Assembly: GCA_011089965.1 (NCBI GenBank)
Contig: JAANAU010000004.1
Span: 62,001-126,000, forward strand
Origin: Magnetococcales bacterium
Lineage (GTDB): Bacteria > Pseudomonadota > Magnetococcia > Magnetococcales > Magnetaquicoccaceae
Length of the DNA: 64,000 nt
Direction of reading: 5' to 3'
Shown one piece after another: positions 4,079-29,034 of this stretch (within the stretch, counting starts at the first letter, position 1; every line of letters starts with the position of its first letter). Made by a program: the position numbers and the translations under genes. The notes under the pieces were generated by a model. That model did no database searches, was not told where the DNA came from, and was given only the letters and a program-made list of their open reading frames with translations.

Positions 4079-4543
4079 TTATCCAGCACGCCCCATGGCA
4101 CTGGCATAAGCGTTCCGCGCCAACTCGGTGCGGTAGTGATTACCCCCACCCAGGGCATGATAGCTGAACATCATGGCATTTTCCGTGGGCTGCATGACAC
4201 GCAACTCAAACTCCACACTGTTGCGGGTCAATTGATGCGGCATGAGATGATCATGTGGCCGAGGACCACTCTTGCCATTCCCTGGTTCCTTGGGAGCAGG
4301 CCTCGATGCCGGTTCCTCCTCCGGCAGCGTCAACCCGTCATCCGGGGACAATGCCTCGCGCAAGACATTCTCAAAATCCGGTTGCGGCCCCTTATAGGCT
4401 TCGGTCTGGTTGGTCCGGTGCCAAGGTAAACCTGGTGCCGGCTCGGAGAGCGGGTTGATGATATCTTGCAGATTCTGTGGTTTCAGATTCAGCAGATTGG
4501 CTTTGAAAGCCTCGGGGGATCCAATCACTCCGACATGCGACAC
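4079..4543 (-). CDS. Hypothetical protein (154 aa)
   Basis: I do not recognise this protein. The best start is GTG at 4541-4543, preceded at seven bases by CAGGAG; an ATG further upstream lacks such a site. It has an N-terminal part with KANLLNLKPQNLQDIINPL, a Pro/Glu-rich middle (residues ~65-95), and a C-terminal part (VEFELRVMQPTENAMMFSYH, then ELARNAYASAM). No signal peptide or membrane segment is visible. It is the last minus-strand gene after the RelA/SpoT-like gene, 110 bases downstream, and could belong to that transcription unit. The terminator at 4014-4057 follows it. Confidence 0.6.
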   Translation of the reverse strand: MSHVGVIGSPEAFKANLLNLKPQNLQDIINPLSEPAPGLPWHRTNQTEAYKGPQPDFENVLREALSPDDGLTLPEEEPASRPAPKEPGNGKSGPRPHDHLMPHQLTRNSVEFELRVMQPTENAMMFSYHALGGGNHYRTELARNAYASAMGRAG

Positions 4544-4653
4544 GGTCGTTCTCCTGTCATCATTCCGACATTCTGGCGATACATGAAACTTCATCTATCA
4601 CCAATGGAGCAGTAACCGTGCCGATATCGACACCTTGTACAATATTTTTTCTG

Positions 4654-5904
4654 TTACCAGGCAGGATCCGGCGCTCTGCGCACTGTTTTCTTATAGTAAG
4701 CCAGAAGATCGTTGGCAAACTCTTCGACCGAGATCCCTTTCAACGAAATATAGTTACGCACATTCTTTTTGATGATATCAACATTGCCGGTTTTGGCCAA
4801 CAAGACATAATACAGAACCAACAATGCGGAACCTTTGTGAATATATTCAACAGCAGCTTTGGAAGTATCGCCAAAGATATTCTTCATCATGATCAGGATC
4901 ACGTTCTTGTGTGCTGTCAACTCTTCGAGCAGACGCTCTTCCCGGTCAAATCCCAACCGCAAGAACACCTCACTCAACGATGAGACGAAATTCTCACGAT
5001 AGACCAGTCTGGTCTCATAGTGATCGGCAATGGAACGGTCAATATCCCGGATCAAGGCTTCGTTCAGAATGAATGCCTCCAGACGGGTGGCAAAGGCCGC
5101 CTGTTTCTGGGGATCCACCGGTTTCGGCTCCTGGGAGGCAGGCTCAACCGTCGCAGCAGGTACAACAGGGGCATGTGAGGGATTGGCAGGAGCGGCATAT
5201 TCCACAGGTGCAGCGACTGGCGGCATCACCACCCCACCGCCAGGAGCAGTTCCCATGGCCATGTTCTGGTGCATGATTTGATCCTTGATGCGCACCAACT
5301 CTTCATCGGCCATTTTAAGCAGATAGGAGATTTGAGCCAATTTGTTGACGTTTTGACCAGGCAATCGGGAACGCCCCATCAATACGTCAAAGATCCCTTT
5401 GACCTCAGACCAGGAGTGCTGCAATACGGTCCGGATCTCCAACTCGGCCTTGAGTGTGGCATACCGCTGATATTCCGGACGGGCATACTGTTCCGGCAAT
5501 AGTTTGATATCAAAGCGACGGATATTGATGCCAAAACGTTCATGATCCGGGGTCTCATGCAAAGGCAGACAACAATCGTCAAGGGCAAACTCCTTCCCGA
5601 TCAGATTGATTGCCAGATCAATGTCATCCGAGAAATAGACCACGACCCGCACGGTGATCAAATTCTCAATATCCCGCAATCGGGTATAGTATCCCCCCTT
5701 TTCCACAAGCATTTTTTTCAGAGCAGGCCTGGACATCAAATCCCCGGCAATGGCGCTGACAGGCAGTGTGGTCTTGTTGAAGACCTCACCCAGATTGAGC
5801 AGCAACCGTTCGTTGTAGGATCGGTAGAGGTCGAAGCTCTCGTCGTACTGATCCAGCAGATTGCTGACATGCTGGGCTTGAAGCAGGGGATTTTTGGGTT
5901 CCAT
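4654..5904 (-). CDS. RelA/SpoT-type nucleotidyltransferase-fold protein with altered active site
   Basis: This 416-residue protein contains a RelA/SpoT synthetase fold (residues ~60-180). The clearest segment is LKAELEIRTVLQHSWSEVKG, matching the family pattern LKAEIQxRTLLQHAWAEI. Upstream, NLITVRVVVYFSDDID corresponds to the usual DxxGxRV..YF.DDI strand, and FGINIRRFDIKL to the usual FGYRSxHxxxxL. By that alignment the metal-binding Asp is Asn (~residue 81), the guanine-stacking Tyr is Ile, and the following His is Arg, whereas the Glu near 154 is kept. A Pro/Ala-rich linker (~225-270) leads to a helical C-terminal domain I cannot name. It lies downstream of the PstB-like gene in the same direction. 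Synthesis of (p)ppGpp is doubtful; binding or regulation is more likely. The ribosome site is weak, so the start is uncertain. Confidence 0.75.
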   Translation of the reverse strand: MEPKNPLLQAQHVSNLLDQYDESFDLYRSYNERLLLNLGEVFNKTTLPVSAIAGDLMSRPALKKMLVEKGGYYTRLRDIENLITVRVVVYFSDDIDLAINLIGKEFALDDCCLPLHETPDHERFGINIRRFDIKLLPEQYARPEYQRYATLKAELEIRTVLQHSWSEVKGIFDVLMGRSRLPGQNVNKLAQISYLLKMADEELVRIKDQIMHQNMAMGTAPGGGVVMPPVAAPVEYAAPANPSHAPVVPAATVEPASQEPKPVDPQKQAAFATRLEAFILNEALIRDIDRSIADHYETRLVYRENFVSSLSEVFLRLGFDREERLLEELTAHKNVILIMMKNIFGDTSKAAVEYIHKGSALLVLYYVLLAKTGNVDIIKKNVRNYISLKGISVEEFANDLLAYYKKTVRRAPDPAW

Positions 5905-6062
5905 GGTCGTTTTGTTCTGCGCCGTTCGTTCAAGAAAAAATCCTGGTTCGAGTCCTGGCGGAGGATGCCTCCAGCAGTATATGCAAACTTCTGGCCGGAA
6001 ACAAAAAAAAAGGTGACCACAAGGACCGGCCAGGTCAGGATTGCATCTTTTCTTGATCAAGA

Positions 6063-6857
6063 TCAAACAGAACGACCTTCAATATAGTCTGCTGTCTTAT
6101 GTTTGGCTGGGGCGACAAAAAGCCTGTCGGTCGGAGCCGCTTCCACGATCCGGCCTCTGGAGATGAAAACCGTAACATCACTGAGCCGTCGGGCCTGGGC
6201 CAGATTGCTGGTGGCCAATACGATGGCACACTGAAGACGCAACTCCCAGATCAACTCTTCAATGGCCGCGCATCCCTGGGGATCGAGCATCTGACAGGGA
6301 TCATCGAGCAACAAAAGTGTCGGCTTGAGCGGCAACACTCGGGCAATGCACAAACGCAGCCGCTCTTCGTCTGTCAATCCACGGGCGGCTGATCGTCTGA
6401 GTTGATCTTTCAAACGGGTCCACAGACCCACTTGACGCAAGGCCATCTCGACCACCTGATCGGCCTCGCTGACCGCAATACGACCCTTCTGCTCCCGGTG
6501 CAAACAGTACCCGAACAAGATATTGTCACGAATGGAAACCGGAAAAGGGGCAGAACGGGCAAACACCATACCGACATGTCGGCCCACCCAACCCGGATCC
6601 AGTTTCGGGTCATACAGATCCCGCTGCAACAGCGTCACCGATCCGCTCAGACGTACGACATCGGAACGCTGAATGGTGCGATTCAAACTGCCCAACAGGG
6701 TGGATTTGCCACATTTTCTGGCCCCGATCACACTCGTGATCAAAGAGGCGGAAATCGTCAGGTTCATGTCATAGAGCACCTGACAATGGCCATACCAGAC
6801 GTTCAGATGGCGCACCTCCAGAATCGGTTGGTTGACCGCAGGGATGTCAATCATCAT
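6063..6857 (-). CDS. PstB-like ABC ATPase with degenerate catalytic motifs
   Basis: The ~264-residue protein aligns along its length with PstB, the ATPase of the phosphate importer (LNVWYG.QVLYD at the start; GMVF..APFPVSIRDNI; LRLCIAR). Every catalytic motif is changed. Walker A reads GARKCGKST with bulky residues in the loop. The Q-loop Gln is Ala (~100). The signature LSGGQ is LTDEE (161-165). The catalytic Glu after Walker B is Asp (LLLLDDP, ~186). The H-loop His is Ser (ATSN, ~217). The start at 6857 (or the next ATG, 6854) follows AGAGGATGGA and overlaps the permease stop by about 11 bases, indicating translational coupling. It may bind ATP but probably turns over poorly. A signalling role with the PhoU fusion is my inference. 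Confidence 0.85.
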   Translation of the reverse strand: MMIDIPAVNQPILEVRHLNVWYGHCQVLYDMNLTISASLITSVIGARKCGKSTLLGSLNRTIQRSDVVRLSGSVTLLQRDLYDPKLDPGWVGRHVGMVFARSAPFPVSIRDNILFGYCLHREQKGRIAVSEADQVVEMALRQVGLWTRLKDQLRRSAARGLTDEERLRLCIARVLPLKPTLLLLDDPCQMLDPQGCAAIEELIWELRLQCAIVLATSNLAQARRLSDVTVFISRGRIVEAAPTDRLFVAPAKHKTADYIEGRSV

Positions 6858-7605
6858 TCCATCCTCTACGCACGCTCTGCATGACATACCCGGCTGCGGT
6901 ATTGATCAACAAGGCGATCAGCAGCAACAGAATCACCATCACCCCCAACAACGGATCATGCGCCAACCCCGATGCAGGGGCATGGCTCTGTTCCGACTCC
7001 AAAGTGACGGAAAGGAGTTGCATGGCATCGGTCACACCCGAAGGGAGCTGAATTTTCTGCCCGGAAGTGACGAGAATGGCCAAACATTCACCCATTCCGC
7101 GCCCGACACCCAGAACAGCGACTGCCAGCAGCGCACGTTTCAGCCCCGGAAACACGATCAAACGCAGAGTCTGCCAACGCGAAGCACCCATGGCTTCGGC
7201 TTCCAGATACAACGAATCGGGTACGGCTTTCAACAGTTGCACGACCAGCGCCGTCATGGTCGGGAGGGCAATGCCAACCAGAATCAAGGCGGAGTCTACC
7301 ACATCGGGCGTGGAAGGCTGCCAGAGCGACCAGATCACCCATCCCCAGACCACACCCGGAATGGCTGAAGCCAATCCGATCAACTCCAACCAGACCAAAC
7401 GCATCTGATCATATCGATATTCGATGATCCAGACTCCGACCACACAGGCTACAGGCAAAGCGATCCACATGGCCAACAGCGCCATCCAGATCCCATCCTC
7501 CCACTCCTGAGAACGCCACCAAAAGGATTCGGCGGTGGTTTTCCACTCGCCGCTGAACCAGTAAACCAAGACACAGACCAGCCAGAGAAAAAGATAACGG
7601 TTCAT
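6847..7605 (-). CDS. PstA/PstC-like ABC permease subunit
   Basis: This 252-residue membrane protein resembles PstA and PstC. It has AIPGVVWGWVIW, a typical EAA loop (LEAEAMGASRWQTLRLIVFP) that would contact the ATPase, and GRGMGECLAILVTSG in place of the usual GRAxGET. About five or six hydrophobic segments are seen. The ATG at 7603-7605 follows GGAGAGCGG. It begins two bases after the end of the PhoU-fusion gene and overlaps the start of the PstB-like gene, so the three are surely one operon. No second permease and no PstS are encoded nearby. It is therefore either a homodimeric permease or part of a transport-inactive sensor. Confidence 0.85.
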   Translation of the reverse strand: MNRYLFLWLVCVLVYWFSGEWKTTAESFWWRSQEWEDGIWMALLAMWIALPVACVVGVWIIEYRYDQMRLVWLELIGLASAIPGVVWGWVIWSLWQPSTPDVVDSALILVGIALPTMTALVVQLLKAVPDSLYLEAEAMGASRWQTLRLIVFPGLKRALLAVAVLGVGRGMGECLAILVTSGQKIQLPSGVTDAMQLLSVTLESEQSHAPASGLAHDPLLGVMVILLLLIALLINTAAGYVMQSVRRGWNDD

Positions 7606-7607
7606 GC

Positions 7608-8696
7608 TCAACCGCTCTCCCGGCTTCCGGATACAAGATCCATCAACTGCCGCAACTGCACGGCCAGTTCCCGATAGATCTCCTCCAGACACCTCTGTGT
7701 CGAGACCTCATCGATCCTGGCGGCAAACTGCCCAACATCCCAACTGAGGAATATGGTATGAAAAGGGGGTTTGACGATGTAGGAGCGCACCTCGCCCTGC
7801 AAGGCGATCATCAGATCCATCTTCTGCACATCCATGGTGGCAATCGACTTGGGCCGCATACCGGCCAGATCAAAACCAAGGGTGCGCATGAATGCGACCG
7901 CGTTGGGATCTGCCTCACGGGTCGGGGTCCGACCTGCACTGTAGAAATGGCAATGGGTGTCGTAACTCTTGCGGGCAATGGCTTCTGCCATCAATCCGAG
8001 AGCATTATTTTCTTCATCCAGAAAAAGAATGTGCAGCGGCTTCGGAGGGGGTCTGCTCCCGGAGAGCCAGAAAATGATCTCCTCGCACAAATTGGTGGCA
8101 CGATTGCCCACCCGTTCCAACATGATGAAAACCACATACAGATCCATGATCTCCCGGGAGTGACCGGTATGACTGTCCCCTTCCTCAATGAGAAAACGGA
8201 TCGCCTGTTCCATTTGGCTGCCCAACTGGAGATTCATCCGCATGGTATTTTCCGCCAGAGGGATATTGCCATCGGCAAAGGCGAAAAGGGATTGACGCAA
8301 CATGGTCCGGACAATCGAAGCCATGGTCTCCAACTCCTGTTTCAGCACTCCGGTTGGCCGATTGGGCAGATCCAGGGATTCGCGGCTGATATTGACGGCA
8401 TAATCTGCGATCCGTTCCAGATCGTTGACCATGCGCATGGCCGAAGAGACCAGTCGCAGATGGCCGGCACTTGGGAGAAAGCGGGCTATGAAGGCATGGC
8501 AGAGTTGCTCCACTTCCCGGTATTGCCGGTCCAAGGCATAGTCCATCAAGACCGTCATGTTGGCCAGTGGCTCATTGCCGGAAAGCAGGGCCTGCACCGC
8601 ATTTTTCAGAGCGATCTCGACCCCTTCCCCCATGCTGGCCACCGCCTGGCGGATCTGTTGGAGGTCCAGTTGCAACCGCTTATCATGGATGGGCAT
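7608..8696 (-). CDS. PhoU domain fused to a catalytically altered LMW phosphatase/ArsC-like domain
   Basis: Residues 1-215 are PhoU, with two helical repeats. The first metal motif is intact (NDLERIADYAVNIS, 91-104). The second has Asn for Asp (LERVGNRATN, 193-202). Residues ~222-355 match the low-molecular-weight protein tyrosine phosphatase/arsenate reductase fold: ILFLDEENNALGLMAEAIAR aligns with the P-loop pattern VLFVCxGNxCRSxMAEAI. The nucleophile Cys is Asp227, the phosphate-binding Arg is Leu233 and the next Ser is Gly. The usual general-acid DP motif is replaced around 320-324 (WDVGQF). Length is about 140 residues more than ordinary PhoU. The ATG follows GGAGTCCTGTC. It heads the Pst-like operon. 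I infer a non-catalytic phosphate or phosphoprotein sensor. Confidence 0.88.
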   Translation of the reverse strand: MPIHDKRLQLDLQQIRQAVASMGEGVEIALKNAVQALLSGNEPLANMTVLMDYALDRQYREVEQLCHAFIARFLPSAGHLRLVSSAMRMVNDLERIADYAVNISRESLDLPNRPTGVLKQELETMASIVRTMLRQSLFAFADGNIPLAENTMRMNLQLGSQMEQAIRFLIEEGDSHTGHSREIMDLYVVFIMLERVGNRATNLCEEIIFWLSGSRPPPKPLHILFLDEENNALGLMAEAIARKSYDTHCHFYSAGRTPTREADPNAVAFMRTLGFDLAGMRPKSIATMDVQKMDLMIALQGEVRSYIVKPPFHTIFLSWDVGQFAARIDEVSTQRCLEEIYRELAVQLRQLMDLVSGSRESG

Positions 8697-9025
8697 GACA
8701 GGACTCCACGATCAACCCCCATGGGGTGTACCGACCGACAACCGCTTGCCCGATCATCGGTCGGTTGGCCCGCCCACTGGTCATGACAGATCCATTGGAC
8801 GCTTAAGAGAATCGGATGCGGTTCTCATTCCGCACCCTGTTGCATGGATATTATTCTAAATATCCCGCATACGCATGAACATATAATAATTGATTCATGA
8901 AGAAACGATGAAGATCTGATGAAATCAGAGCGCCCGACTCCATCCAAACCACTGGATCCTCCCCAAGGATTGGCCCATAATTGCAGACACAAGCTGCCTA
9001 CATCATCTGATCTGGACATGTCGAT
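8697..9025. other. Intergenic region between divergent genes
   Basis: These 329 bases lie between the PhoU-fusion operon (minus) and the FHA-phosphatase gene (plus). I see no gene. The central part is AT-rich, with a TATAAT at 8882-8887 but no matching -35 at the right spacing. Promoters for both directions should be here; none can be fixed by eye. Confidence 0.4.
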
Positions 9026-10438
9026 ATGAAAATTTTTGAGAAATTACAACACATATTCAACAAATGCGCCCATAATGCACCATCTGTCACCCATGGCGAA
9101 CATGCATTTCGTGACTCCTGCCTCCGTTTACCCGCCTCTGGCTTGGCCTATACGTTAAGACTCGGTGGCAAGCAGGGAACCATTTTGCAACTCTACCCGT
9201 GGCGCAGCCTGCTGAAGACAAATGCAGATTATTTTTCATGGGTTCTGATAAATCCGCAAAGATTTTTTTTCGAGGCAGGAGGATTTCTTCGTATCGATCC
9301 GGAGAGCCGGGTTGTGATCGGACGTCATGAAGAGGATCAGACCCTGGCTTTGCAACTCTCAACGCGCGTGGCCAAACGCCATCTGATTCTCGAACACCGG
9401 AAAGACCATCTGCTGATACGCGATCTTGATACGGATACAGGTTCACTCTTGTATGTACAACCAGAACCGGAACAGGTGGAACGGTTGGGCGTTTGGCGTT
9501 TGAGCTGCTTGCAAGAGATTCGCCGACTGTTTGGTGGTCCTTTGCGGCCACTGGATGCACGTACGGCCTTGGAACGGCTGCGTCACGCCCATGCCATACA
9601 GCGCGCCATCTGGGCGCCTGGCAGCCCGGATGCTGCTCCGGCGATCATTCATCTGCCGGTTGAAACCCAACCGATCCTGGTGGGTGATCTGCATGAACAC
9701 CTGGATAATCTGTTGACGGTTTTGACCACGGGTGGGGGGTTGCGCGCACTGGAGGAGCGACGCGCCGTTCTGGTTCTGCTCGGCGATGCCGTTCATCCGG
9801 ATGGTGGCAGCGACCTGACGGAGATGAGCGGTTCCCTTCTGATGATGGATCTGATATTCGCCCTGATGATCCGCTTTCCAGGCCGTGTGGTCTATATCCG
9901 GGGCAATCACGATGGGTGCGATGAGGAGATCAGCAAGCGCGGCATCTCGCAAGGCCGCGCCTGGCGTCACACCATGATCAAAACGCGCGGGGAAGAGTAT
10001 TTGCAGGCCATGCTGAACTTTTATCAGGATCTCCCTTCTATCGTCGTGCATCCACGGGTTGTCGCCTGTCATGCCGCGCCCTTCACGGTCCCGGTCAACC
10101 GCAAAACCCTTGGCAACCTGCGCGCGCATCCTGAACTGTTGCGTCAATTGACCTGGAACCGCATTCACCAGCCCAACCGTCCTGGGGGATATCGCAAGGC
10201 CGATGTCAAACGATTCTTGACGGCTTTGACCGGTTCCGACCGACCGGCATTGGTGGTGGGACATACACCATTGGATGACCGGCATACCTTCTGGTTGAAT
10301 ATCGATGGGATATCCAACCATCACATTCTGTATGGCGGCCATGCCAGACGGATGGGCTGGATCACGCTGATGGACGAACGCCTGTTGGCCCAGGAATATC
10401 CAGTGGAACCCCTTTCCCAGGAACTGGACACCTGCTAA
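9026..10438 (+). CDS. FHA-like domain fused to PPP-family metallophosphatase
   Basis: The 470-residue protein combines two parts. Residues ~85-145 look like a forkhead-associated (phosphothreonine-binding) domain: VVIGRHEE, then STRVAKRHLILEH and IRDLDTDTGSLL, echoing the GR, SxxHa and DLxStNGT motifs. Residues ~215-440 form a PPP-type phosphatase. GDLHEH (220-225) stands for GDxHG, LGDAVHPDG (252-260) for GDxVDRG, and RGNHD (292-296) for RGNHE, followed by ACHA (347-350) and VVGHTPL. The metal ligands (two Asp, His, Asn) are present, so activity is plausible. The substrate is unknown. The stop codon TAA coincides with the first bases of the 127-bp repeat at 10436. The ribosome site is weak. 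Confidence 0.8.
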   Translation: MKIFEKLQHIFNKCAHNAPSVTHGEHAFRDSCLRLPASGLAYTLRLGGKQGTILQLYPWRSLLKTNADYFSWVLINPQRFFFEAGGFLRIDPESRVVIGRHEEDQTLALQLSTRVAKRHLILEHRKDHLLIRDLDTDTGSLLYVQPEPEQVERLGVWRLSCLQEIRRLFGGPLRPLDARTALERLRHAHAIQRAIWAPGSPDAAPAIIHLPVETQPILVGDLHEHLDNLLTVLTTGGGLRALEERRAVLVLLGDAVHPDGGSDLTEMSGSLLMMDLIFALMIRFPGRVVYIRGNHDGCDEEISKRGISQGRAWRHTMIKTRGEEYLQAMLNFYQDLPSIVVHPRVVACHAAPFTVPVNRKTLGNLRAHPELLRQLTWNRIHQPNRPGGYRKADVKRFLTALTGSDRPALVVGHTPLDDRHTFWLNIDGISNHHILYGGHARRMGWITLMDERLLAQEYPVEPLSQELDTC

Positions 10439-10562
10439 ACCAAAACCATTTTGGAATGTGGAATTTGTTTTGTTGGGGCGTTGCCCCAAACCCCACCAAG
10501 GGCCATTGGCCCCTGGACCCCCTTGACATAAACCACGCATCCCGAAATGGGTGCGGTTTAAC
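10436..10562. repeat. 127-bp dispersed repeat, copy 1, between convergent genes
   Basis: This element recurs at 13458-13584, with six substitutions and no gap by hand alignment. Its ends are inverted (TAAAC at the left, GTTTA at the right). Inside are two short palindromes, GGGGCGTTGCCCC and GGGCCATTGGCCC. It has no gene of its own. The left-end TAA is the stop codon of the FHA-phosphatase gene, and the right-end TTA is, on the other strand, the stop codon of the PiT gene. The hairpins could serve as a terminator for both. Confidence 0.9.
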
Positions 10563-11823
10563 CAAAAATCCCCTTGACAATAAAAAAGAAGGCTGCGGCA
10601 CCCAAAGCCCCTGCCGGAACCGTGATCAACCAGGATATGACGATATTCCGGATCACGCGCAAATCCAATGCGCCAATGCCGCGCGCCAACCCAACCCCCA
10701 TCACCGCGCCAACCGCAATATGGGTGGTCGAGACCGGCAACCCGGTCTTGGAGGCCAGCACCACCACGATGGCCGCCGAAAGCGTGGCAGCAAAGGCCCG
10801 AGGGGGAGTCAATTCGGTGATGCGGGTGCCGATGGTGGCGATCACCTTTTGTCCATACGTTGCCAAACCCACGACAATGGCTGCGCCGCCCATGAACAAC
10901 ACCCACAACGGCAACGGCGCACTGGCACTGACCTTGCCACCGGAATGCACCACATCCAAGACAGCGGCCAAAGGACCGATCCCATTGGCCACATCGTTGG
11001 AGCCATGGGCAAAACACATGGCCGCTGCCGTAAAAATCATCATGGGAATGAACACTTTTTCGGCACTGGCCACACGATGTTCCGGATCGGCATCGGGTTC
11101 TGCCTGAATCTTGCGGATCATCATGCGTCCAACCACGGCACAGGCCACCCCCACCACCACGGCCAACAGCAGGGTCTCCAGATCAGACAGGTTGATCTTC
11201 AGATGGGTCAGACCATTGAAAAAGGTCACCAGGGCCACGATGAACCCCACCAGAAAAATATAATACGGACCACGCTCCTGTGCGCTCTGGAATGGATTGG
11301 CGGTTTCCAGAATAAAGCGGCGAATGCTTCTGGTCAGCAGATAAGCCACCAATCCACCCAGTATCGGCGAAACAAACCACGAAGCGATAATGGTACTCAT
11401 CTGCTGCCAACGCACCACGTCCATGCCCACGCCCACCATGGCAAAACCGGCCACCGCACCCACGATGGTATGGGTGGTGGAGACCGGCCAACCAAAAGCC
11501 GTGGCCACATGCAGCCAAATGGCCGTGGCCAGCAGTGCGCTGGTCATGCCATACATCAAAAGCTCCGGGTGGGTGGCCATGGCCGCCGGATCCACGATCC
11601 CTTTGCGAATCGTGGCCGTGACCTCTCCTCCTGCAATAAAGGCACCGGCAAACTCGAAAACAGCCGCAATGATCACCGCATTGCGAATGGACAAGGAACC
11701 CGATCCCACCGGTGGCCCCATGGCATTGGCCACATCATTGGCACCAATCGCCCAACAGGCATAAAAAGCAAAAATCAACGCCAGAGTGGTGAACAACGTA
11801 CCATATTGGGCAATCACTTCCAT
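10558..11823 (-). CDS. pit: PiT-family phosphate permease, long type (copy 2)
   Basis: This 421-residue permease is of the longer PiT type, with the full signature GANDVANAMGPPVGSG near the N-terminus and its inverted counterpart FAHGSNDVANGIGPL in the second half. Two GWPVSTTHTIVG/GLPVSTTHIAVG segments are typical of the Pho-4 domain. About eleven or twelve hydrophobic segments are visible. The ATG at 11821-11823 follows AGGAGAGAGCACC; an upstream ATG would add an unlikely tail. Unlike the other three permeases here it has no adjacent DUF47 gene and is clearly a different subfamily. It converges on the FHA-phosphatase gene, and its stop codon lies in the repeat. Confidence 0.95.
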   Translation of the reverse strand: MEVIAQYGTLFTTLALIFAFYACWAIGANDVANAMGPPVGSGSLSIRNAVIIAAVFEFAGAFIAGGEVTATIRKGIVDPAAMATHPELLMYGMTSALLATAIWLHVATAFGWPVSTTHTIVGAVAGFAMVGVGMDVVRWQQMSTIIASWFVSPILGGLVAYLLTRSIRRFILETANPFQSAQERGPYYIFLVGFIVALVTFFNGLTHLKINLSDLETLLLAVVVGVACAVVGRMMIRKIQAEPDADPEHRVASAEKVFIPMMIFTAAAMCFAHGSNDVANGIGPLAAVLDVVHSGGKVSASAPLPLWVLFMGGAAIVVGLATYGQKVIATIGTRITELTPPRAFAATLSAAIVVVLASKTGLPVSTTHIAVGAVMGVGLARGIGALDLRVIRNIVISWLITVPAGALGAAAFFFIVKGIFG

Positions 11824-12057
11824 GGTGCTCTCTCCTGATGCCAAAGATCCCAAACAGAACAGGCAAACCTGCCATCACTCCCACTGCCGACCCACCTCTC
11901 TCTCAACTCTGAATCACAACAAATTGTCGCCAACATCGCGGCGAATAGCAACCGATGACAGCATGACAACCCCACTCCATGGATTTGTTTTGCATGTAAT
12001 GCAAATTTTTCATATACTCCCATTCAACTGTGAATCCGCCATTCTGGAGCATTCCTC

Positions 12058-13457: not shown

Positions 13458-13584
13458 TAAACCAAAACTATTTTGGAATGTGTAATTTGTTTTGTTGGGG
13501 CGTTGCCCCAAACCCCACCAAGGGCCATTGGCCCCTGGACCCCCTTGACATAAACGACGCATCCCGGAATAGGTGCAGTTTAAC
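13458..13584. repeat. 127-bp dispersed repeat, copy 2
   Basis: It is collinear with 10436-10562 (six differences, constant offset 3022). It has the same TAAAC/GTTTA ends and the same two inner palindromes. This copy lies in non-coding DNA about 90 bases upstream of the histidine kinase gene at 13677, so it does not supply a stop codon here but would be transcribed in any long leader. Confidence 0.9.
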
Positions 13585-13676
13585 ATAAAAAGCTCATTCA
13601 CCCTTAGAAAAGGAGTTCCGGACCAACAAACAATCATGCGATTTGTTTAAGGTTTCAAAATAATGGAGATCTTTTA

Positions 13677-17317: not shown

Positions 17318-18013
17318 TCAACCGATCTGCACCACAATCCCGTGCAAGACCGAAGCACACTCAGTGACCTTGCCGGCAATGTTGCGCAGATGGCGATAGA
17401 TCTCGCGACGCTTGAGCATCTCCACCACATGCATCATGGCCTGAACCTCGGCACCATCGGCATGAGCGCGCAACCGGTTCAGATCATCGTCAATGGAGTA
17501 GAGATTGACCAGTGCCTTGCGATAGATCTTGTCCACATTGGACAGACACTGCATGCCGACCTGGGCATCCGGCTCGGCCTGACCGGGAGTGGTATCCAAC
17601 TTGGAAAAACCGCGCTTCAACGCTGCCGAAGCCTCACGCAGAACCACCGCCATTTCCAACAGGTGGTTGTCCGACTTGATCTTGAGGGCCTCCATCTCCT
17701 CGACCACGACCCGAATCGACCCCACCGGCTCCGCCAGTGAAACGATGGAGCGCAACACATCTTCGCGATCAATCGGGGTGGAGAAGGCATTGTTCAAGAC
17801 ATCCAGGTGCTTTTCACGCAGCTCGCGCGCCTGGGTTTCGATGATCATGATTTCATGAAACTTGGCTGTGGAAGCCTCGGAAACATAGTCCACGGCCACG
17901 GTCATGCCTTTGGCCAACAGCTCGGCTTGCAGGCTGATCATATCCAGAAACGGGGGAATCCGTGGAAAGACGTTATCCAGCATTTTGGTGAAGGGGGAAG
18001 AACCACCGCTCAT
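17318..18013 (-). CDS. DUF47 / PhoU-like protein, partner of PiT permease (copy 2)
   Basis: This 231-residue helical DUF47 protein is homologous to the copies at 932, 19456 and 27193. It shares DNVFPRIPPFLDMI at the start, FSTPIDREDVLRSI in the middle and LKRREIYRHLRNIAGKVTECASVLHGIVVQIG at the end. AAGGAGAATAAATTC precedes the ATG. It follows the permease gene at 18085 by 71 bases on the same strand, and a strong terminator lies downstream, so pit and DUF47 form a two-gene unit. DUF47 proteins are PhoU-like and are thought to control the PiT permease; the mechanism is not evident from sequence. Confidence 0.92.
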   Translation of the reverse strand: MSGGSSPFTKMLDNVFPRIPPFLDMISLQAELLAKGMTVAVDYVSEASTAKFHEIMIIETQARELREKHLDVLNNAFSTPIDREDVLRSIVSLAEPVGSIRVVVEEMEALKIKSDNHLLEMAVVLREASAALKRGFSKLDTTPGQAEPDAQVGMQCLSNVDKIYRKALVNLYSIDDDLNRLRAHADGAEVQAMMHVVEMLKRREIYRHLRNIAGKVTECASVLHGIVVQIG

Positions 18014-18084
18014 GAATTTATTCTCCTTGGGAACCGTTTGTTAGGTTGAATTCGTATGCATCCGCATTGTCAGTCGGGATTGGA

Positions 18085-19140
18085 TCAACGGGCACCACTG
18101 ACGCCGGTGATCAGATCGGCCAGCATGTAGGTCAATCCACCCACCAGGCCGGAACCGGGAATCGTCAGCACCCAGGTTGCCAGAATCTCTTTACCCTTGC
18201 GCCATTTGACTGCTTTGGGTTGCTCTGCCGTGCCCACACCCATGATGCTGGAGCTGGCAACGTGCGTGGTGGAGACCGGAGCACCCATGGTGGCAGCGCC
18301 GAAGATCACAAACGAAGCCGTCATCTGGGCATTGAACGAGTGGATCGGACGCACCCGGAAGATGCCAAAACCGACCGTCTTCACAATGCGCCAACCACCG
18401 AACATGTTCCCAAGGGTAATGAAAATGGCACAGGTCAACACCACCCAGAAGGGAATATGGAACTTCTGGATATCCCCACCCAACAGCAGGGCCAAGGCAA
18501 TGATACCCATGCTCTTTTGGGCGTCATTGGTGCCATGAGAAAAAGAGAGAGCTGCCGCGCTGATCCAATGCGAAACTTTGAAGATCTTGTCCGTGCGCGG
18601 CTTGGCATTGGCCACCAATCTTCTGACGATCTTTTGCAGCAACCAACCGATCCAGAAGCCGAGGATTGGTGAGACAAACAAAGACAGAACCACCTTCATG
18701 ACGCCGGTCAACTTGCCCTTGGTGATCAAGGCCTCCCAGCCCCACATGACGTGATCGGCACCAGCCGCAAAAAGGACCGCTCCGGCCACACCACCCACCA
18801 GGGCATGAGACGAAGAAGAGGGCAGACCAAACCACCACGTGAGCAGGTTCCAGAAAATCGAACCAAAGATGCCGCACAACAGGATCATCAACGACATGTT
18901 GGCCTTCAGATCGCCAATGGAGACGAACTTGCCAATGGTATCGGCCACAGCCGTACCGCCCAACATGGGACCGATGAAGTGAAACACACCCGTCAGTATC
19001 GCGGCCTGAATCGGAGTCATGGCGCGCGAAGCAATGGTGGTTCCGGTGATGTTCGAGGCATCGTGGAAGCCGTTGGTGAAGTCGAAAATCAACACCACAA
19101 CAATCGCGGTCCACATCATGATAATAATACTGTTATCCAT
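18085..19140 (-). CDS. pit: PiT-family inorganic phosphate permease (copy 3)
   Basis: This 351-residue permease is close in sequence to copies 1 and 4: FDFTNGFHDASNITGTTIAS, WWFGLPSSSSHALVGG, and FSHGTNDAQKSMG where copy 1 has FSHGANDAQKSMG. The start at 19138-19140 (MDNSIIIMMW) follows AGGTGAGG; the long upstream in-frame extension has no support. DUF47 follows. The 268 bases upstream are AT-rich and hold the promoter, just past the terminator of the phoB-phoR-DUF47 unit. The minus-strand stretch CTTAACA-N4-CTTCATT is only weakly reminiscent of a PhoB site. Confidence 0.95.
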   Translation of the reverse strand: MDNSIIIMMWTAIVVVLIFDFTNGFHDASNITGTTIASRAMTPIQAAILTGVFHFIGPMLGGTAVADTIGKFVSIGDLKANMSLMILLCGIFGSIFWNLLTWWFGLPSSSSHALVGGVAGAVLFAAGADHVMWGWEALITKGKLTGVMKVVLSLFVSPILGFWIGWLLQKIVRRLVANAKPRTDKIFKVSHWISAAALSFSHGTNDAQKSMGIIALALLLGGDIQKFHIPFWVVLTCAIFITLGNMFGGWRIVKTVGFGIFRVRPIHSFNAQMTASFVIFGAATMGAPVSTTHVASSSIMGVGTAEQPKAVKWRKGKEILATWVLTIPGSGLVGGLTYMLADLITGVSGAR

Positions 19141-19399
19141 CTTCTCGCACCTCACCTGCCCTGTTGAGTGTCCTAACCAATCTGCTGCCCATGTTGCGCA
19201 CCTCTTCTGTTGTGGAAAATGAATGTGACCTGAACGGAACATTCTGCTGCTCCGGGATTGCATGCTGTGGCGATTCACCGCTCCAAAAGCAATTTAAAGG
19301 AGTGCTGTTAAAGCCAAATGAAGGATTTGTTAAGGATCAATAAAGAATAATAAATTATATTAATTGACAGTTATAATTATCAAAGTCATCAAACTTTCA

Positions 19400-19455: not shown

Positions 19456-20124
19456 TCAACCGATCTGCATGACGATGGAGTGCAACACTTCGGCAGCATC
19501 CCCAACCTGACCGGAAATGTTGCGCAGATGACGATACGCCTCACGACGCTTGAGAATTTCGACCGTGTGAATAAAGGTGGCGATCTGAATTTCCGGATCC
19601 CGGGTGCGTACGTCATCCGGATCCACGGTGAACAACTTGGCGATCCCCTTGCGATAGATCTTGTCCACCGTATTGGGACACTGAATCGCCATTTCGGCAT
19701 CCGGTTTGGCGAGGCCCGGCTTGGTGGCGAGCTTGGAATAGCCCCGCTCCAGTGCCGAAGCTGCCTCACGCATCACCACGGCCATCTCCAGGCAGTAGTT
19801 GTCGGAGGTGACTTGCAGCGCCCGCATCTCCTCCATCGCTTCGACCATCGCTTCAACCGGAGTCTCCAGGCTATTGATCGCCTGCAACAGATCCGTACGA
19901 TCAATCGGGGTCGAGTAGGAATCTGACAGCTTGTCCAGATGACGCTGACGCAACTCCTTGGCCGACCTCTCAATATCTGCCAGGGCCTGGAAGCGGATCG
20001 GATCGGGATCGGTCAAACAATCGGCGGCAGTCAACATGCATTTGGCCAACAGTTCGGCCTGGGCGCTGACCATGTCCAGAAAAGCCGGCATGGGGGGCAG
20101 GATATGGTCCAACATTTTGCTCAT
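19456..20124 (-). CDS. DUF47 / PhoU-like protein in the phoB-phoR unit (copy 3)
   Basis: The 222-residue DUF47 protein resembles copy 2 most (LPPMPAFLDMVSAQAELLAK, YSTPIDRTDLLQAI, LKRREAYRHLRNISGQVGDAAEVLHSIVMQIG). GAGGAGAGAGTATC precedes the ATG. It lies 29 bases after phoR on the same strand and is followed by a terminator, so phoB-phoR-DUF47 form one transcript. In most bacteria the PhoR kinase is restrained by PhoU; a DUF47 protein made with PhoR could take that place here. This is inference from context. Confidence 0.9.
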   Translation of the reverse strand: MSKMLDHILPPMPAFLDMVSAQAELLAKCMLTAADCLTDPDPIRFQALADIERSAKELRQRHLDKLSDSYSTPIDRTDLLQAINSLETPVEAMVEAMEEMRALQVTSDNYCLEMAVVMREAASALERGYSKLATKPGLAKPDAEMAIQCPNTVDKIYRKGIAKLFTVDPDDVRTRDPEIQIATFIHTVEILKRREAYRHLRNISGQVGDAAEVLHSIVMQIG

Positions 20125-20153: not shown

Positions 20154-21434
20154 TTAATGGGTTTTCTCAATCCAATCCACCACCACAGGCGGAAACCGAC
20201 ACATGAAACGACTGCCGATTCCCGCCTGACTGATGATCTCCAATTTGCCATGGGCGCGTTCCATGGCTTCCTTGACCAGGGCCAACCCCAGTCCGGTGCC
20301 TTGATAATCTTGCGAGGCACCTTTGAGACTCTGCTGCGAAGTCACCCGGTAGTACTTTTCCGTCAACCGGGGCAGATGATAACTGGCGATCCCTGGTCCA
20401 TTGTCGGCCACGGTCAAGGTGGGCCGCTGCATCTCATCCACTTCCCACGAAACCTGCACCTCGGTCTGATCCGGGGTGTGATGAACGGCATTGGAAAACA
20501 GATTGTTCACCACGCAGCGCACCAACTCCCGGTTGGCATGGAACGGAAACTTCCGCGCCACCGTGAAGACAAACTGATGACCACGTTCACCACTCAACAT
20601 CTCGGCCTCCGCGATCATCTCCCGGATGAAACTTTCCATGTGAATCGACTCAGACGGAAAGGTATGTCTTGGTCCCAGACGCAGCAGTTGGGTTTGATCT
20701 TCGATCAGGTTCTGCATGCGCCGGATCTGCTGGTGCAACAGGTTCAAGGCGTTGTCCCAGGCAGCGGATCCCGTGGTCAGATCAGGCAGCAACTCGACCA
20801 CGCCACGAAACACCGTGATCGGCGTTTTCAGTTCGTGGGAGATGTTGCTGATAAAATCATTCTGTTGCCGATCCAGTTGATACCGCTCGGTAATGTCATG
20901 CACCAACACCATCCAGAACTCCTCACCCGTCAGGCGAATGAAACGCCAATGCAGCATGCGGCCCCCGTCCAACGGGGAGGGGAGGTCCACCGAACGACTG
21001 AAATCGCCGCGCAGCAGAAAATCTTCCAAAACCGGCTGCCCCAGACGATATCCCAAGGGTTTGCCCAGATCGCGCGACTCATCCAGACCCAGCAACTGAT
21101 GCGCACCCGGATTGAACCAGCAGATCGCCAAACGGTAATCCAGCAACACCACCCCTTCGGGCAAGGCATCCATGGCCATGCGCCAACGCCGGATCGCCAC
21201 CTGCCAACGCTCCTGAAGCGGCACATCCTGGTCAAAGGCCAGACAAAAGGCCGGGGGTTCTTCCAGTTCCAACCGGATTGGGGGTGGATCACCACTCCAA
21301 TGGCGCTGGACCAGATATCCCACCACCAGCAGCGGCGGAACCCAAACCACCCAATGGACATGATGGGCGCTCAGCCATACGGCAGGCGCACATGCCAACA
21401 GCACCATCCATGTCGCACCGGTTTTGAAAATCAT
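20154..21434 (-). CDS. phoR: Phosphate-regulon sensor histidine kinase PhoR
   Basis: The 426-residue kinase has the PhoR layout: one or two short N-terminal membrane segments (~9-45) with almost no periplasmic domain, a PAS domain (~85-185; EGVVLLDYRLAICWFNPGAHQLLG), HisKA with FISNISHELKTPITVFRGVVE (His ~206), and HATPase motifs (NNLFSNAVHHT, DNGPGI, GTGLGLALVKE). It overlaps the phoB stop by four bases (ATGA), a coupling typical of phoB-phoR. It phosphorylates or dephosphorylates PhoB in response to phosphate supply, normally through PhoU and Pst. Here the only Pst-like genes are the degenerate ones at 6063-8696. Confidence 0.92.
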   Translation of the reverse strand: MIFKTGATWMVLLACAPAVWLSAHHVHWVVWVPPLLVVGYLVQRHWSGDPPPIRLELEEPPAFCLAFDQDVPLQERWQVAIRRWRMAMDALPEGVVLLDYRLAICWFNPGAHQLLGLDESRDLGKPLGYRLGQPVLEDFLLRGDFSRSVDLPSPLDGGRMLHWRFIRLTGEEFWMVLVHDITERYQLDRQQNDFISNISHELKTPITVFRGVVELLPDLTTGSAAWDNALNLLHQQIRRMQNLIEDQTQLLRLGPRHTFPSESIHMESFIREMIAEAEMLSGERGHQFVFTVARKFPFHANRELVRCVVNNLFSNAVHHTPDQTEVQVSWEVDEMQRPTLTVADNGPGIASYHLPRLTEKYYRVTSQQSLKGASQDYQGTGLGLALVKEAMERAHGKLEIISQAGIGSRFMCRFPPVVVDWIEKTH

Positions 21435-22135
21435 GGAGAGTGCCGGGCGGAAAACATGTACCCTGCACCCCGTACGGTTTGTAACAGGCGTTCCTGACCA
21501 AACGGTTCCAACAGTTTGCGCAGTGAGCGGACATGCACATCAACCGTGCGATCCCCGACATGCACATGACGCCCCCACACCAGATCCAACAACTGATCCC
21601 GATGATAGACCCGATCCGGATGGGTGATGAAAAATCCGAGCAGTCGATACTCCATGGCACTGCACTTCAGCGGTGTGCCGCGACTGGAAATGGCATGGCG
21701 GGAACGATCCAGAACCAACCCTTCAAACTCCACCAGATCTTCCAAAGAAGTTGGCTCCACGCGCCGCAATGCCACACGAATACGGGCAAGCAACTCCTTG
21801 GCGGAAAAAGGTTTGGTGATATAATCATCCGCACCCTGCTCCAGGCCGCTCACCTTGTCGTGTTCTTCCCCCTTGGCCGTCAGCATGATGACCGGAATGG
21901 AACGGGTGGACTCCTCTTTCTTGAGCAGCCGGAGGTATTCGATCCCGGAGACCCCTTTGAGCATCCAATCCAGAAGGATCAGATTGGGAGTGGCATGTCG
22001 CAACAACCCCTGAGCCTCCAGGACGCTGGCAGCCTCCAGGCTTTCAAACCCGGCATTGGCCAGAATCAGACAGATCGTGTCACGAATGGCGGATTCGTCA
22101 TCGACAATCAACACCTTGGAACGCAAAGCACCCAT
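21431..22135 (-). CDS. phoB: Phosphate-regulon response regulator PhoB
   Basis: The 234-residue protein has a receiver domain (VLIVDDESAIRD; phospho-acceptor Asp in LILLDWML; TAKGEEHDKVSGLEQGADDYITKPFSAKELLARI) and an OmpR-type winged-helix domain (LKCSAMEYRLLGFF, RDQLLDLVWG, VDVHVRSLRKLL, VRGAGYMF). The DNA-recognition region VGDRTVDVHVRSLRKLL is strongly PhoB-like. GGGGAGATGAACA precedes the ATG. phoR follows with a four-base overlap. The gene is divergent from the CHASE-type kinase gene, with 48 bases between the starts. I could not find convincing PhoB boxes in this window. Confidence 0.95.
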   Translation of the reverse strand: MGALRSKVLIVDDESAIRDTICLILANAGFESLEAASVLEAQGLLRHATPNLILLDWMLKGVSGIEYLRLLKKEESTRSIPVIMLTAKGEEHDKVSGLEQGADDYITKPFSAKELLARIRVALRRVEPTSLEDLVEFEGLVLDRSRHAISSRGTPLKCSAMEYRLLGFFITHPDRVYHRDQLLDLVWGRHVHVGDRTVDVHVRSLRKLLEPFGQERLLQTVRGAGYMFSARHSP

Positions 22136-26464: not shown

Positions 26465-27151
26465 ATGCCGAATCAATCTTTCCTCCTGTTCGGAAAGAGC
26501 ATGAACCTGGAAAAACAGATCGAGGAGTTTCTGAATCTGCTTTCCGAGGCCAACATCCTGTTTCGGGGAGGGGTGGGACTCTATCTGGAAGAAAACGCCC
26601 ATGGAGAGCGGTTCCAGTCGCGATTGCAGCAGCTCCAACTGCATGAGCGGGAACTCGACATCTTGAGCCGCTTCATCGAAGCCCATCTGCGCGCCCAGCC
26701 GATTGTTCCGGAGCTGCGCGGCGATGTGCTGCAACTGCTGGAACAGTTGAGCCGCCTGCAACGATTGCTGGCGAAAAACCTGGAAGAGTTCGAGGCAGAA
26801 TGCCCCAACATCCCGACGGAAATGCATGGCCGCTTCAACGAACTGTGCCACTTCGTCTCCATGGCCGTCGGAACCTGTGTCGAGGCTGGACACATCTTTT
26901 TCCACGAAACGGAAAAAGTGGGGGAGTATCTGAGCAAGGTGGCTTTTTACGAAAAAGAGGCCGACAAACGGGTACTGGGATTGGTCAAGTCGACCTTTTC
27001 CCATCCCAACCTCTCTTTGGCAGAAAAAATCCACATCCGCCGGTTTGTCGACAAGGTGGATGAACCCGCCAACAAGGCGGAAGAGATCGCGGCATGGTTG
27101 GCCATCTTCTTTCTGAAGAGGGCACCGTTGTACCCGGTAATCAGTCAATAA
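26465..27151 (+). CDS. DUF47 / PhoU-like protein, divergent type (copy 4)
   Basis: This 228-residue helical protein is a second kind of DUF47 protein, less like the other four. FLLFGKSMNLEKQIEEFLNLLSEANILF is the typical DUF47 N-terminus, and the C-terminal FVDKVDEPANKAEEIAAWLAIFFLKR stands where the family has a conserved acidic DxxD/E helix. The ATG at 26465 is kept because the segment after it resembles family members, although the ribosome site is weak; 26501 is an alternative. It is first in a three-gene unit with a second DUF47 gene (27193) and a PiT permease (27991). Two different DUF47 proteins with one permease suggests a hetero-oligomeric regulator, which is inference. Confidence 0.85.
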   Translation: MPNQSFLLFGKSMNLEKQIEEFLNLLSEANILFRGGVGLYLEENAHGERFQSRLQQLQLHERELDILSRFIEAHLRAQPIVPELRGDVLQLLEQLSRLQRLLAKNLEEFEAECPNIPTEMHGRFNELCHFVSMAVGTCVEAGHIFFHETEKVGEYLSKVAFYEKEADKRVLGLVKSTFSHPNLSLAEKIHIRRFVDKVDEPANKAEEIAAWLAIFFLKRAPLYPVISQ

Positions 27152-27192
27152 CAACAAACAACAAACAACAAACAATCGCAGGAGAAAAAATC

Positions 27193-27882
27193 ATGGGCGG
27201 ATCCAGCACTTCCTTTTCCAAACTCACCAACCGCGTCTTCCCCCGCATGCCCAACTTCTACGGGCTGATCCTCGAACAGTGTGAACTGGCCAATCAGGCT
27301 GCGGCTCTGCTCGAAGAGTATGTCCAAACCGGCAACAAATCCCGCGCCGATCAGATCCTGAAACTGGAGCAGGACTCCGATACGTTGCGACACCGCAACC
27401 TGGATGTCCTGAAAAGCGCCTTCGCCACCCCCATGGACCGCGAAGACATCTATCGCGCCTACATGACCGTGGACTGCATCATCGCCTATGCCCACAACAT
27501 CGTCTCCGGCATGGATACCCTGGGCATCAAAACCGACAAACACATCACCGACATGACCGCTGCCCTGCGCAATGCCGTCGAAACCCTGAGCGCCGGTTAC
27601 AAAAAACTCTCCACCTCCCCGGCAGATGCGGACAAGGATGCCCAACTGGTCGGTCAGGCGCGCAAAAACATCGAAAAAGTCTTCCGTACCGCCACTTCCG
27701 AACTGTTCCAAAACGAAAGATACACCGAAGCCCATCCGAACGGCACTGCTGACACCCAAACCGTCAACTACATCCTCGACATCTTCAGACGCCGGGAGAT
27801 CTATCGCCACCTGTTCGATGCCGCCATCGACATGGGCAATGCCGGCAAAGTGCTGCACGATATCGTGGTTCAGGTCGCCTGA
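27193..27882 (+). CDS. DUF47 / PhoU-like protein (copy 5)
   Basis: The 229-residue protein is most like copy 1: TNRVFPRMPNFYGLI, FATPMDREDIYRAYM, FRRREIYRHLFDAAIDMGNAGKVLHDIVVQVA. The ATG at 27193 follows AGGAGAAAAAATC. The frame continues upstream into the previous gene but that part is not DUF47-like. A short run of ACAA-type repeats (27151-27175) fills the gap from the preceding DUF47 gene. The permease follows after a 108-base gap with a hairpin. Confidence 0.92.
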   Translation: MGGSSTSFSKLTNRVFPRMPNFYGLILEQCELANQAAALLEEYVQTGNKSRADQILKLEQDSDTLRHRNLDVLKSAFATPMDREDIYRAYMTVDCIIAYAHNIVSGMDTLGIKTDKHITDMTAALRNAVETLSAGYKKLSTSPADADKDAQLVGQARKNIEKVFRTATSELFQNERYTEAHPNGTADTQTVNYILDIFRRREIYRHLFDAAIDMGNAGKVLHDIVVQVA

Positions 27883-27895
27883 TCCGCACCATCCA

Positions 27896-27935
27896 GAGGT
27901 TGGTCACAGCCAAGGCTTTGAGGCTGGCCAACCTC
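27896..27935 (+). other. Intergenic hairpin between DUF47 and pit
   Basis: GAGGTTGG (27896-27903) pairs with CCAACCTC (27928-27935), and an inner CAGCC/GGCTG stem extends it. No T-run follows, so it is more likely an RNA-processing or stability element, or a partial attenuator, within the operon than a terminator. Confidence 0.5.
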
Positions 27936-27990
27936 ATACAAAACTATAAGCATCGAATCGCCTAAACAAAGGGAGCAATCAGACAGAAAG

Positions 27991-29034
27991 ATGGACGCAA
28001 ACTTTATTACTGTCATGATGTGGACGACTATTATTGTTGTTCTCATCTTTGATTATACAAACGGTTTCCACGATGCTTCCAATATCATCGGCAGCATCAT
28101 CGCCTCGCGCGCCATGACCCCGATCCAGTCCGTGATCGTGGTCGCCACCTTTGAACTGCTCGGCCCACTGCTGGCCGGAACCGCCGTGGCCAACACCATC
28201 GGCAAATTCATCACCTTCAACGATATCCCAGCCAACATCTCCATTGTCGTGGTGCTGTGGGGCATGTTCGGAGCCATCTTCTGGAACCTGCTCACCTGGT
28301 GGTTCGGTCTCCCCTCCTCCTCCTCCCATGCGCTGGTGGGTGGCCTGATCGGGGCCGTGGTCGTGGCAGCCGGGGCAGATCATGTGGTGTGGGGCTTTGC
28401 CAAATTCTGGTCAACCGGCAAACTCGAAGGGGTGGCCAAGGTGGTGCTCTCGCTGATCATCTCCCCGATTCTCGGCTTTGTCTTCGGTTACATGTTCAAT
28501 TCCCTGGTTGGCTTCATGTTGCGTGGTGCCACCCCAAAAGCCAACAACTGGCTCAAACGGTTCCAATACATCAGCGCCGCCAGCCTGGCCTTCTCCCACG
28601 GCTCCAATGATGCCCAGAAAAGCATGGGAATCGTCACCCTTTGCCTGGTTCTTGGCGGCGCGATGCAAAAATTCGAGGTGCCGTTCTGGGTGGTCATGGC
28701 CTGCGCCCTCTGCATCACCCTGGGGATCCTTTCCGGCGGCTGGCGCATCGTGCGCACCATCGGCTTCGGCATCTACAAGGTGCGTCCGCAACACGCCTTC
28801 TCCGCCCAACTCACGGCAGGCACCCTGATCTTCGGGGCCGCCATCTGGGGCGCTCCGGTCTCCACCACCCACATCGCCTCCACCGCCATCATGGGTGTGG
28901 GCAGCTCGGACCGGCCCAAAGCCGTCCGGTGGGCCAAGGCATCGGAAATCGTCAGCACCTGGATCATCACCATCCCCGGATCCGGCGCAGTCTCTGCCCT
29001 GACCTACTGGATCTTCGCCACTCTGGCCTACTGA
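27991..29034 (+). CDS. pit: PiT-family inorganic phosphate permease (copy 4)
   Basis: This 347-residue permease is nearly the twin of copy 1 in length and layout: FDYTNGFHDASNIIGSIIAS, WWFGLPSSSSHALVGG, FSHGSNDAQKSMG, GAPVSTTHIASTAIMG. It is third in the DUF47-DUF47-pit unit. A ten-base-pair hairpin follows at 29055-29081, and ppk2 starts 142 bases downstream in the same direction, so imported phosphate and polyphosphate metabolism may be co-expressed. Confidence 0.95.
   Translation: MDANFITVMMWTTIIVVLIFDYTNGFHDASNIIGSIIASRAMTPIQSVIVVATFELLGPLLAGTAVANTIGKFITFNDIPANISIVVVLWGMFGAIFWNLLTWWFGLPSSSSHALVGGLIGAVVVAAGADHVVWGFAKFWSTGKLEGVAKVVLSLIISPILGFVFGYMFNSLVGFMLRGATPKANNWLKRFQYISAASLAFSHGSNDAQKSMGIVTLCLVLGGAMQKFEVPFWVVMACALCITLGILSGGWRIVRTIGFGIYKVRPQHAFSAQLTAGTLIFGAAIWGAPVSTTHIASTAIMGVGSSDRPKAVRWAKASEIVSTWIITIPGSGAVSALTYWIFATLAY

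Follow-up and report, generated by a model that had tools for sequence, protein, structure and literature searches.

Four genes of a Magnetococcales bacterium, encoding PhoU, a Pst-like permease, a PstB-like ATPase and a RelA/SpoT-like protein (here RelX), raise the question of how a phosphate-transport locus whose enzymatic parts lack catalytic residues arose, and of what it may still do. They lie in the window, the whole stretch of DNA analysed (64,000 nucleotides), which is part of contig C75 of a metagenome-assembled genome (MAG; 3.66 Mb, 80 contigs, 98.9% complete) most closely related to Magnetococcales MAGs such as nARSLQbin1 and nW5bin1. A first-pass annotation of the window had taken the four genes for a natural device in its own right. 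They were found instead to be, very probably, a reduced copy of a larger, clade-specific Pst-PhoU operon, of which a complete copy is present elsewhere in the genome.

Gene content of the locus

All four genes were intact open reading frames (ORFs) on the minus strand, at the positions given by the first-pass annotation, and profile and fold matches bore out the domains that it had named.

7608 to 8696, minus strand: PhoU with a C-terminal domain of the ArsC/low-molecular-weight (LMW) phosphatase fold, a putative pseudophosphatase (TIGR02135, LMWPc, predicted fold, omega)
6847 to 7605, minus strand: PstC-like permease, N terminus shortened, strongly diverged (ORF from GTG 7692, likely start ATG 7605; PF00528, TIGR02138)
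6063 to 6857, minus strand: ATPase derived from PstB2, motifs lost (ORF 6887-6063, likely start ATG 6857 or 6854; TIGR00972)
4654 to 5904, minus strand: RelX, a small-alarmone-synthetase-fold domain with catalytic residues lost, plus a C-terminal helical domain (fold, motifs, omega)

The junctions were as tight as first described, with 2 bp between the PhoU stop and the PstC ATG, and the PstB start overlapped by the PstC stop; a 158-bp gap separated PstB from RelX. The permease matched PF00528 above its cut-off (45.2 bits, 1e-11) and both TIGR02138 (89.9 bits) and TIGR00974 (80.5 bits) below their equivalog cut-offs; from its alignment with the PstC of relatives it is treated here as PstC-like.

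Origin of the locus

Operon layout was compared across 20+ genomes. In five genomes of the same genus (G029, G030, G031, G033 and G036) the full locus ran PstS, PhoU with its phosphatase-fold domain (PhoU-LMWP), PstC, PstA, PstB1, PstB2 and RelX, and in G028 it was divided between two contigs. PstS, PstA and PstB1 were missing from the window copy. A second, complete PstS-PhoU-PstC-PstA-PstB1-PstB2 set, without RelX, was present in the same genome on contig C10; in this copy, as in the relatives, PstS lay immediately ahead of PhoU. The absence of PstS and of a second permease, pointed out in the first-pass annotation, was thus true of the window locus but not of the genome: the PstS and two permease subunits required by an active PstSCAB were found together on C10 and not in the window. 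Contig C10 was assigned to the source genome because it held the sole UbiD of that genome (UbiD being present in 10 of 11 genomes of the genus) and its tetranucleotide profile matched that of the window, by which an assembly or binning artefact was ruled out.

The RelX tree placed the window next to G036 (support 100/99), and the PhoU tree placed the window copy within the RelX-linked group (94/94) and the C10 copy outside it. PstC and PstB2 of the window had very long branches. PhoR was encoded close to the window locus and, in G030, G031, G034 and G036, close to the RelX-linked operon, with DUF47 and Pit genes around. In the window, PhoR and PhoB lay 12 kb from the Pst locus:

20154 to 21434, minus strand: PhoR-like histidine kinase
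21431 to 22135, minus strand: PhoB-like response regulator

Both trees and the linkage to RelX and PhoR indicate that the window locus is most likely the copy inherited in the genus, and C10 a paralogue or an import.

PstB in the window and in the clade

The window PstB matched TIGR00972 best (230.3 bits, below the cut-off of 343.2) and derived from PstB2, being at best 54% identical to the PstB2 of relatives over 250 residues. Its motifs were changed from GPSGCGKST to GARKCGKST, FQRP to FARS, LSLEE to LTDEE, DEP to DDP and THN to TSN. The only ABC motifs kept were the Gly-Lys-Ser of Walker A, in which P, S and the fourth-position Gly were changed (Gly to Lys), and the Walker B Asp. The first-pass claim that catalytic residues were missing therefore held for PstB, as it did for the phosphatase domain and RelX, except that the Walker A Gly-Lys-Ser was retained and that the ancestor of the window PstB already had a non-LSGGQ signature. 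Targeted inactivation of the motifs was not supported: changes were spread over the protein, and motif positions were not significantly more altered than other invariant positions (Fisher p = 0.17). This spread fits relaxed selection.

In the relatives and on C10, PstB1 was intact at Walker A, at the Walker B Glu and in its signature (LSGGQQQR without a mismatch), but its Q-loop Gln was replaced by Pro and its H-loop His by Asn; PstB2 kept Walker A, Q, Glu and His, with LSLEE (once LSLEA) for LSGGQ. The complementary pattern at key residues was invariable in all copies compared, and the asymmetric pair spanned about nine Magnetococcales families (L064-L083, L117-L134). Close PstB1 homologues occurred in 23 of 299 genomes sampled from the phylum, all inside this order. 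Sister families (f2, f13, f14) and other classes had a single PstB with LSGGQQQR and the H-loop His. The simplest reading of these motifs is that PstB1 and PstB2 would pair as a heterodimer in which one ATP site is of the consensus type and the other degenerate. Two paired nucleotide-binding domains (NBDs) with complementary motif loss were found in the relatives and on C10, but not at the window locus, where PstB1 was absent.

A modified transporter might still be formed if the window permease and ATPase paired in trans with PstA and PstB1 from C10. The window PstC retained its GRxxGE pair together with a large part of the EAA loop, and LSGGQ could come from PstB1; however, the window PstB lacked Q, Glu and His, which PstB1 does not fully supply, so that no combination gives a complete site and such pairing is extremely improbable.

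The phosphatase-fold tail of PhoU

The PhoU gene encoded a full-length, two-repeat PhoU (TIGR02135 phoU_full, 142.4 bits with a cut-off of 130.25) with an LMWPc domain match (4e-9). In the predicted structure, the PhoU part aligned to 4q25 with a target-normalised TM-score of 0.95, and the tail had an ArsC fold (0.8). The CX5R catalytic loop was not conserved in the window protein, with Cys replaced by Asp and Arg by Leu (FLDEENNALGLM). Among 25 PhoU-LMWP proteins from 22 genomes, Cys was replaced in all 25 (by Asp, once by Glu) and Arg was gone in 24, being kept in G024 and replaced by Lys in G023 and G019. The 22 genomes with PhoU-LMWP homologues, out of the 299 sampled, were all inside this order. 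These replacements point to a phosphatase domain that has long been inactive with its fold kept, a clade-wide inherited trait, and the pseudophosphatase tail is an accessory present across the clade and probably a binding module. The literature library searched held no paper on PhoU fused to a phosphatase domain, nor on Magnetococcales Pst.

RelX and its partner DnX

RelX matched PF04607 below the cut-off (17.8 bits; cut-off 27), and its N-terminal half had a small-alarmone-synthetase (SAS) fold (AlphaFold/Foldseek; E 5e-7, target-normalised TM-score ~0.77 to B. subtilis SAS1, 5dec). The catalytic set of this fold (GRxK basics, Asp, GY, E.Q) was not retained: the window protein had GDLMSR, ENLITVR (D to N), FGIN (FGY to FGI) and ELEIRT, and intact-looking paralogues in other families had GRVKER, DLVGIR, FGYR and EIQVRS, most of which were also kept by a paralogue on contig C58 of the same genome. 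RelX orthologues of the genus and of two other families (f14 and f6) had lost the basic residues together with the catalytic Asp and GY, a pattern that indicates inherited catalytic loss across the orthologous group. Some RelX-like paralogues (L135 7328-8437, L023-L034), often in tandem, had intact-looking synthetase motifs, and some matched the PADLOC candidate defence model PDC-S33.

The gene that follows RelX in the window was conserved with it:

4079 to 4594, minus strand: DnX, 171 residues, no Pfam family, constant downstream partner of RelX in the genus

In all same-genus loci checked whose contig extends far enough (window, L064-L072), DnX lay directly 3' of RelX; it was 37-63% identical in nine same-genus loci, including those of G027, G032 and G035, in which RelX was apart from Pst. 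Unless shown otherwise, RelX and DnX are best taken as a pseudo-synthetase module of their own, which follows the Pst operon by chance in part of the genus.

The first-pass annotation had proposed that the four genes form a device reporting phosphate state, perhaps also to the stringent response. The SAS fold of RelX, and its position beside Pst in the window and in G028-G031, G033 and G036, would suit it to this role; against this reading, RelX lacked the synthetase residues, stood away from Pst in three genomes and still with DnX, and the loss in PstB was limited to the source genome. Because RelX pairs with DnX also away from Pst, and a full-length Rel/SpoT is encoded elsewhere in the source genome, the coupling was unsupported and such a device is very unlikely.

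The motif losses had also been treated as one set, expected to be shared and under purifying selection if the system was real and to be absent from close relatives if it was not. The phosphatase domain and RelX followed the first expectation. PstB followed the second, as the PstB2 of close relatives kept Walker A, Q, Glu and His. Compared across genomes, the losses in the phosphatase domain and RelX appear old and clade-wide and that in PstB specific to the window copy, which is not the pattern of a single co-ordinated event.

Selection and proposed explanation

A purpose-written branch codon model gave omega for the window branch and the background; synonymous sites were near saturation, and all omegas are approximate. 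PhoU (0.17 on the window branch, 0.12 in the background) and RelX (0.064 and 0.079) were under ordinary purifying selection, about as in relatives. Free estimates for PstB2 (0.17; background 0.049) and PstC (0.18; background 0.035) came with an implausibly long branch; at the length supported by PhoU and RelX (~3), omega increased to 0.38 for PstB2 and 0.82 for PstC. An omega of 1 on the window branch was rejected for all four genes (p = 2e-11 for PstB2, p = 2e-7 for PstC). Amino-acid differences amounted to 114 of 250 in PstB2 and 166 of 272 in PstC, with frames open. The excess of missense changes (~100 in PstB2, ~140 in PstC) would by estimate have brought ~5 and ~10 stops under neutrality, and none was seen. 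PstC and PstB2 were thus strongly relaxed but non-neutral, and a simple neutral pseudogene was rejected by the open frames and the codon models. The first-pass statement that the locus was not in simple decay stands as regards intact frames and rejected neutrality, and is qualified by the strong relaxation of these two genes.

Very probably, the inherited operon has lost PstS, PstA and PstB1, with a complete second copy on C10. If PstB1 and PstB2 pair as proposed, the single catalytic site would place Walker A, Q, Glu and His of PstB2 opposite the LSGGQ of PstB1. Deletion of PstB1 would have left PstB2 unable to complete any ATP site; its catalytic residues would then no longer have been under selection, and Q, Glu and His would have been lost. 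PstC, released from transport, would have diverged as well. The remaining product would be a non-transporting membrane platform of the window permease and ATPase (PstCx-PstBx), holding PhoU and biasing the Pho response through PhoR. In E. coli, PhoR output is set by PstB conformations even without transport: the signature mutant Q160K abolishes transport and signals phosphate sufficiency, and E179Q signals starvation (PMC5775613). By analogy with Q160K, PstBx, in which the signature, the Q-loop and both Glu and His are changed, would be expected to be close to the open state and to favour the phosphate-sufficient, PhoR-phosphatase state. Taken whole, the best explanation, and a somewhat probable one, is a remnant that no longer transports and may be retained to hold PhoU in the neighbourhood of PhoR and PhoB. 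The sensing scaffold of PhoU and PhoR suggested in the first-pass annotation is possible, PhoR/PhoB being 12 kb away; the first-pass observation was confirmed and its interpretation partly supported.

Plain erosion is a possible but less probable account, above which the platform was ranked only modestly. A complete second Pst would have taken over and the window copy would be decaying gene by gene, with PhoU kept as useful to PhoR and RelX kept for a job of its own, and with PstC and PstB persisting for the moment, or else because of the polar effect that stops in them would have on RelX. The genes already lost, the very long branches of PstC and PstB2 and their omegas at the supported branch length agree with erosion; the frames still open despite so many differences, the rejection of neutrality and the tight overlaps retained do not. 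Several further points weigh against a maintained platform. The window PstC was altered at ~60% of otherwise invariant positions and had lost its N-terminal membrane segment, and in PstBx changes were not concentrated in motifs. The reduced operon was in none of the seven same-genus MAGs that were the sole returns of a RelX scan across 84,980 species genomes; with no second genome carrying it, persistence is judged from one MAG, and with approximate omegas. In G034 the Pst operon was absent at the same site, and a 28-residue PstB2 remnant (L069 7034-7117) lay ahead of RelX; this erosion is independent and a precedent for simple erosion.

A stronger form of the platform reading is doubtful: PstCx and a nucleotide-blind PstBx would be a dedicated signalling platform fixing PhoR in one state, with C10 transporting, and the clade as a whole would have a one-ATP-site importer built from two half-dead PstBs, with a PhoU whose phosphatase-fold tail serves as the sensor that reads it. 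How PstSCAB informs PhoR of phosphate independently of transport is an open question, and a naturally occurring Pst-PhoU copy that does not transport, close to PhoR in a genome that also holds a complete copy, would if true be a natural experiment for the conformational-signalling model.

Neighbouring genes and regulation

Upstream of PhoU, an intergenic region is shared with a divergent gene:

8697 to 9025, no strand: region between PhoU and the divergently oriented FHA-like/calcineurin phosphoesterase gene

Pho boxes were not in excess over chance in the window or in two homologous loci, and the single tandem-like match (4543-4571) fell within the DnX gene. The divergent gene (9026-10438, plus strand) had an FHA-like N-terminal region and a calcineurin-type phosphoesterase, and with Pit2 it also adjoined the Pst locus in G029 and G027. 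The window also held three DUF47-Pit phosphate cassettes similar to one another (932-2784, 17318-19278 and 27094-29034; repeats of 72-88% identity), together with a fourth Pit (10558-11853) and a further DUF47 (19456-20124). A 133-nt intergenic repeat, 94% identical, occurred at 10436-10568 and 13458-13590.

Comparison with known systems

The locus shares its gene families with PstSCAB-PhoU of E. coli and most bacteria (TIGR00972, TIGR02138, TIGR02135), with PhoU adjoining Pst and PhoR/PhoB nearby. The differences from that system are that PstS, PstA and PstB1 are missing from the window copy and its PstB looks inactive, and that in the clade PhoU bears a putative pseudophosphatase domain and PstB is split into two complementary defective paralogues. 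The C-terminal domain of PhoU has the fold of ArsC and LMW phosphatases (PF01451), but without the CX5R Cys in all 25 proteins and without the Arg in 24 of them. RelX shares the fold of its N-terminal domain with the small alarmone synthetases RelQ and RelP (PF04607), but lacks their GRxK basic residues, catalytic Asp and GY, and carries an additional helical domain at its C terminus.

An operon with two neighbouring pstB genes is also found in Firmicutes (E. faecalis; PstBA/PstBB of B. subtilis). However, the two PstBs of E. faecalis keep identical motifs (PMC12096839), whereas those of PstB1 and PstB2 in Magnetococcales are complementary and degenerate. One consensus and one degenerate composite site are likewise found in ABC transporters such as Pdr5, ABCB2/B3 and BmrCD and in the fused importer NBDs of RbsA/NupO; Pdr5 has LNVEQ in place of LSGGQ in one NBD (PMC7756269), and RbsA/NupO extend the one-degenerate-site principle to importers (PMC11466899). 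No such arrangement was found described for Pst in the literature library searched, and the pair in this clade differs from Pdr5-type proteins in being built from two separate Pst NBD proteins. To our knowledge, the asymmetric PstB1/PstB2 would, if true, be the first case of a Pst importer that has a degenerate ATP site built in. It is a more novel result than the window remnant, and could reveal the role of a degenerate site in an importer that also signals.

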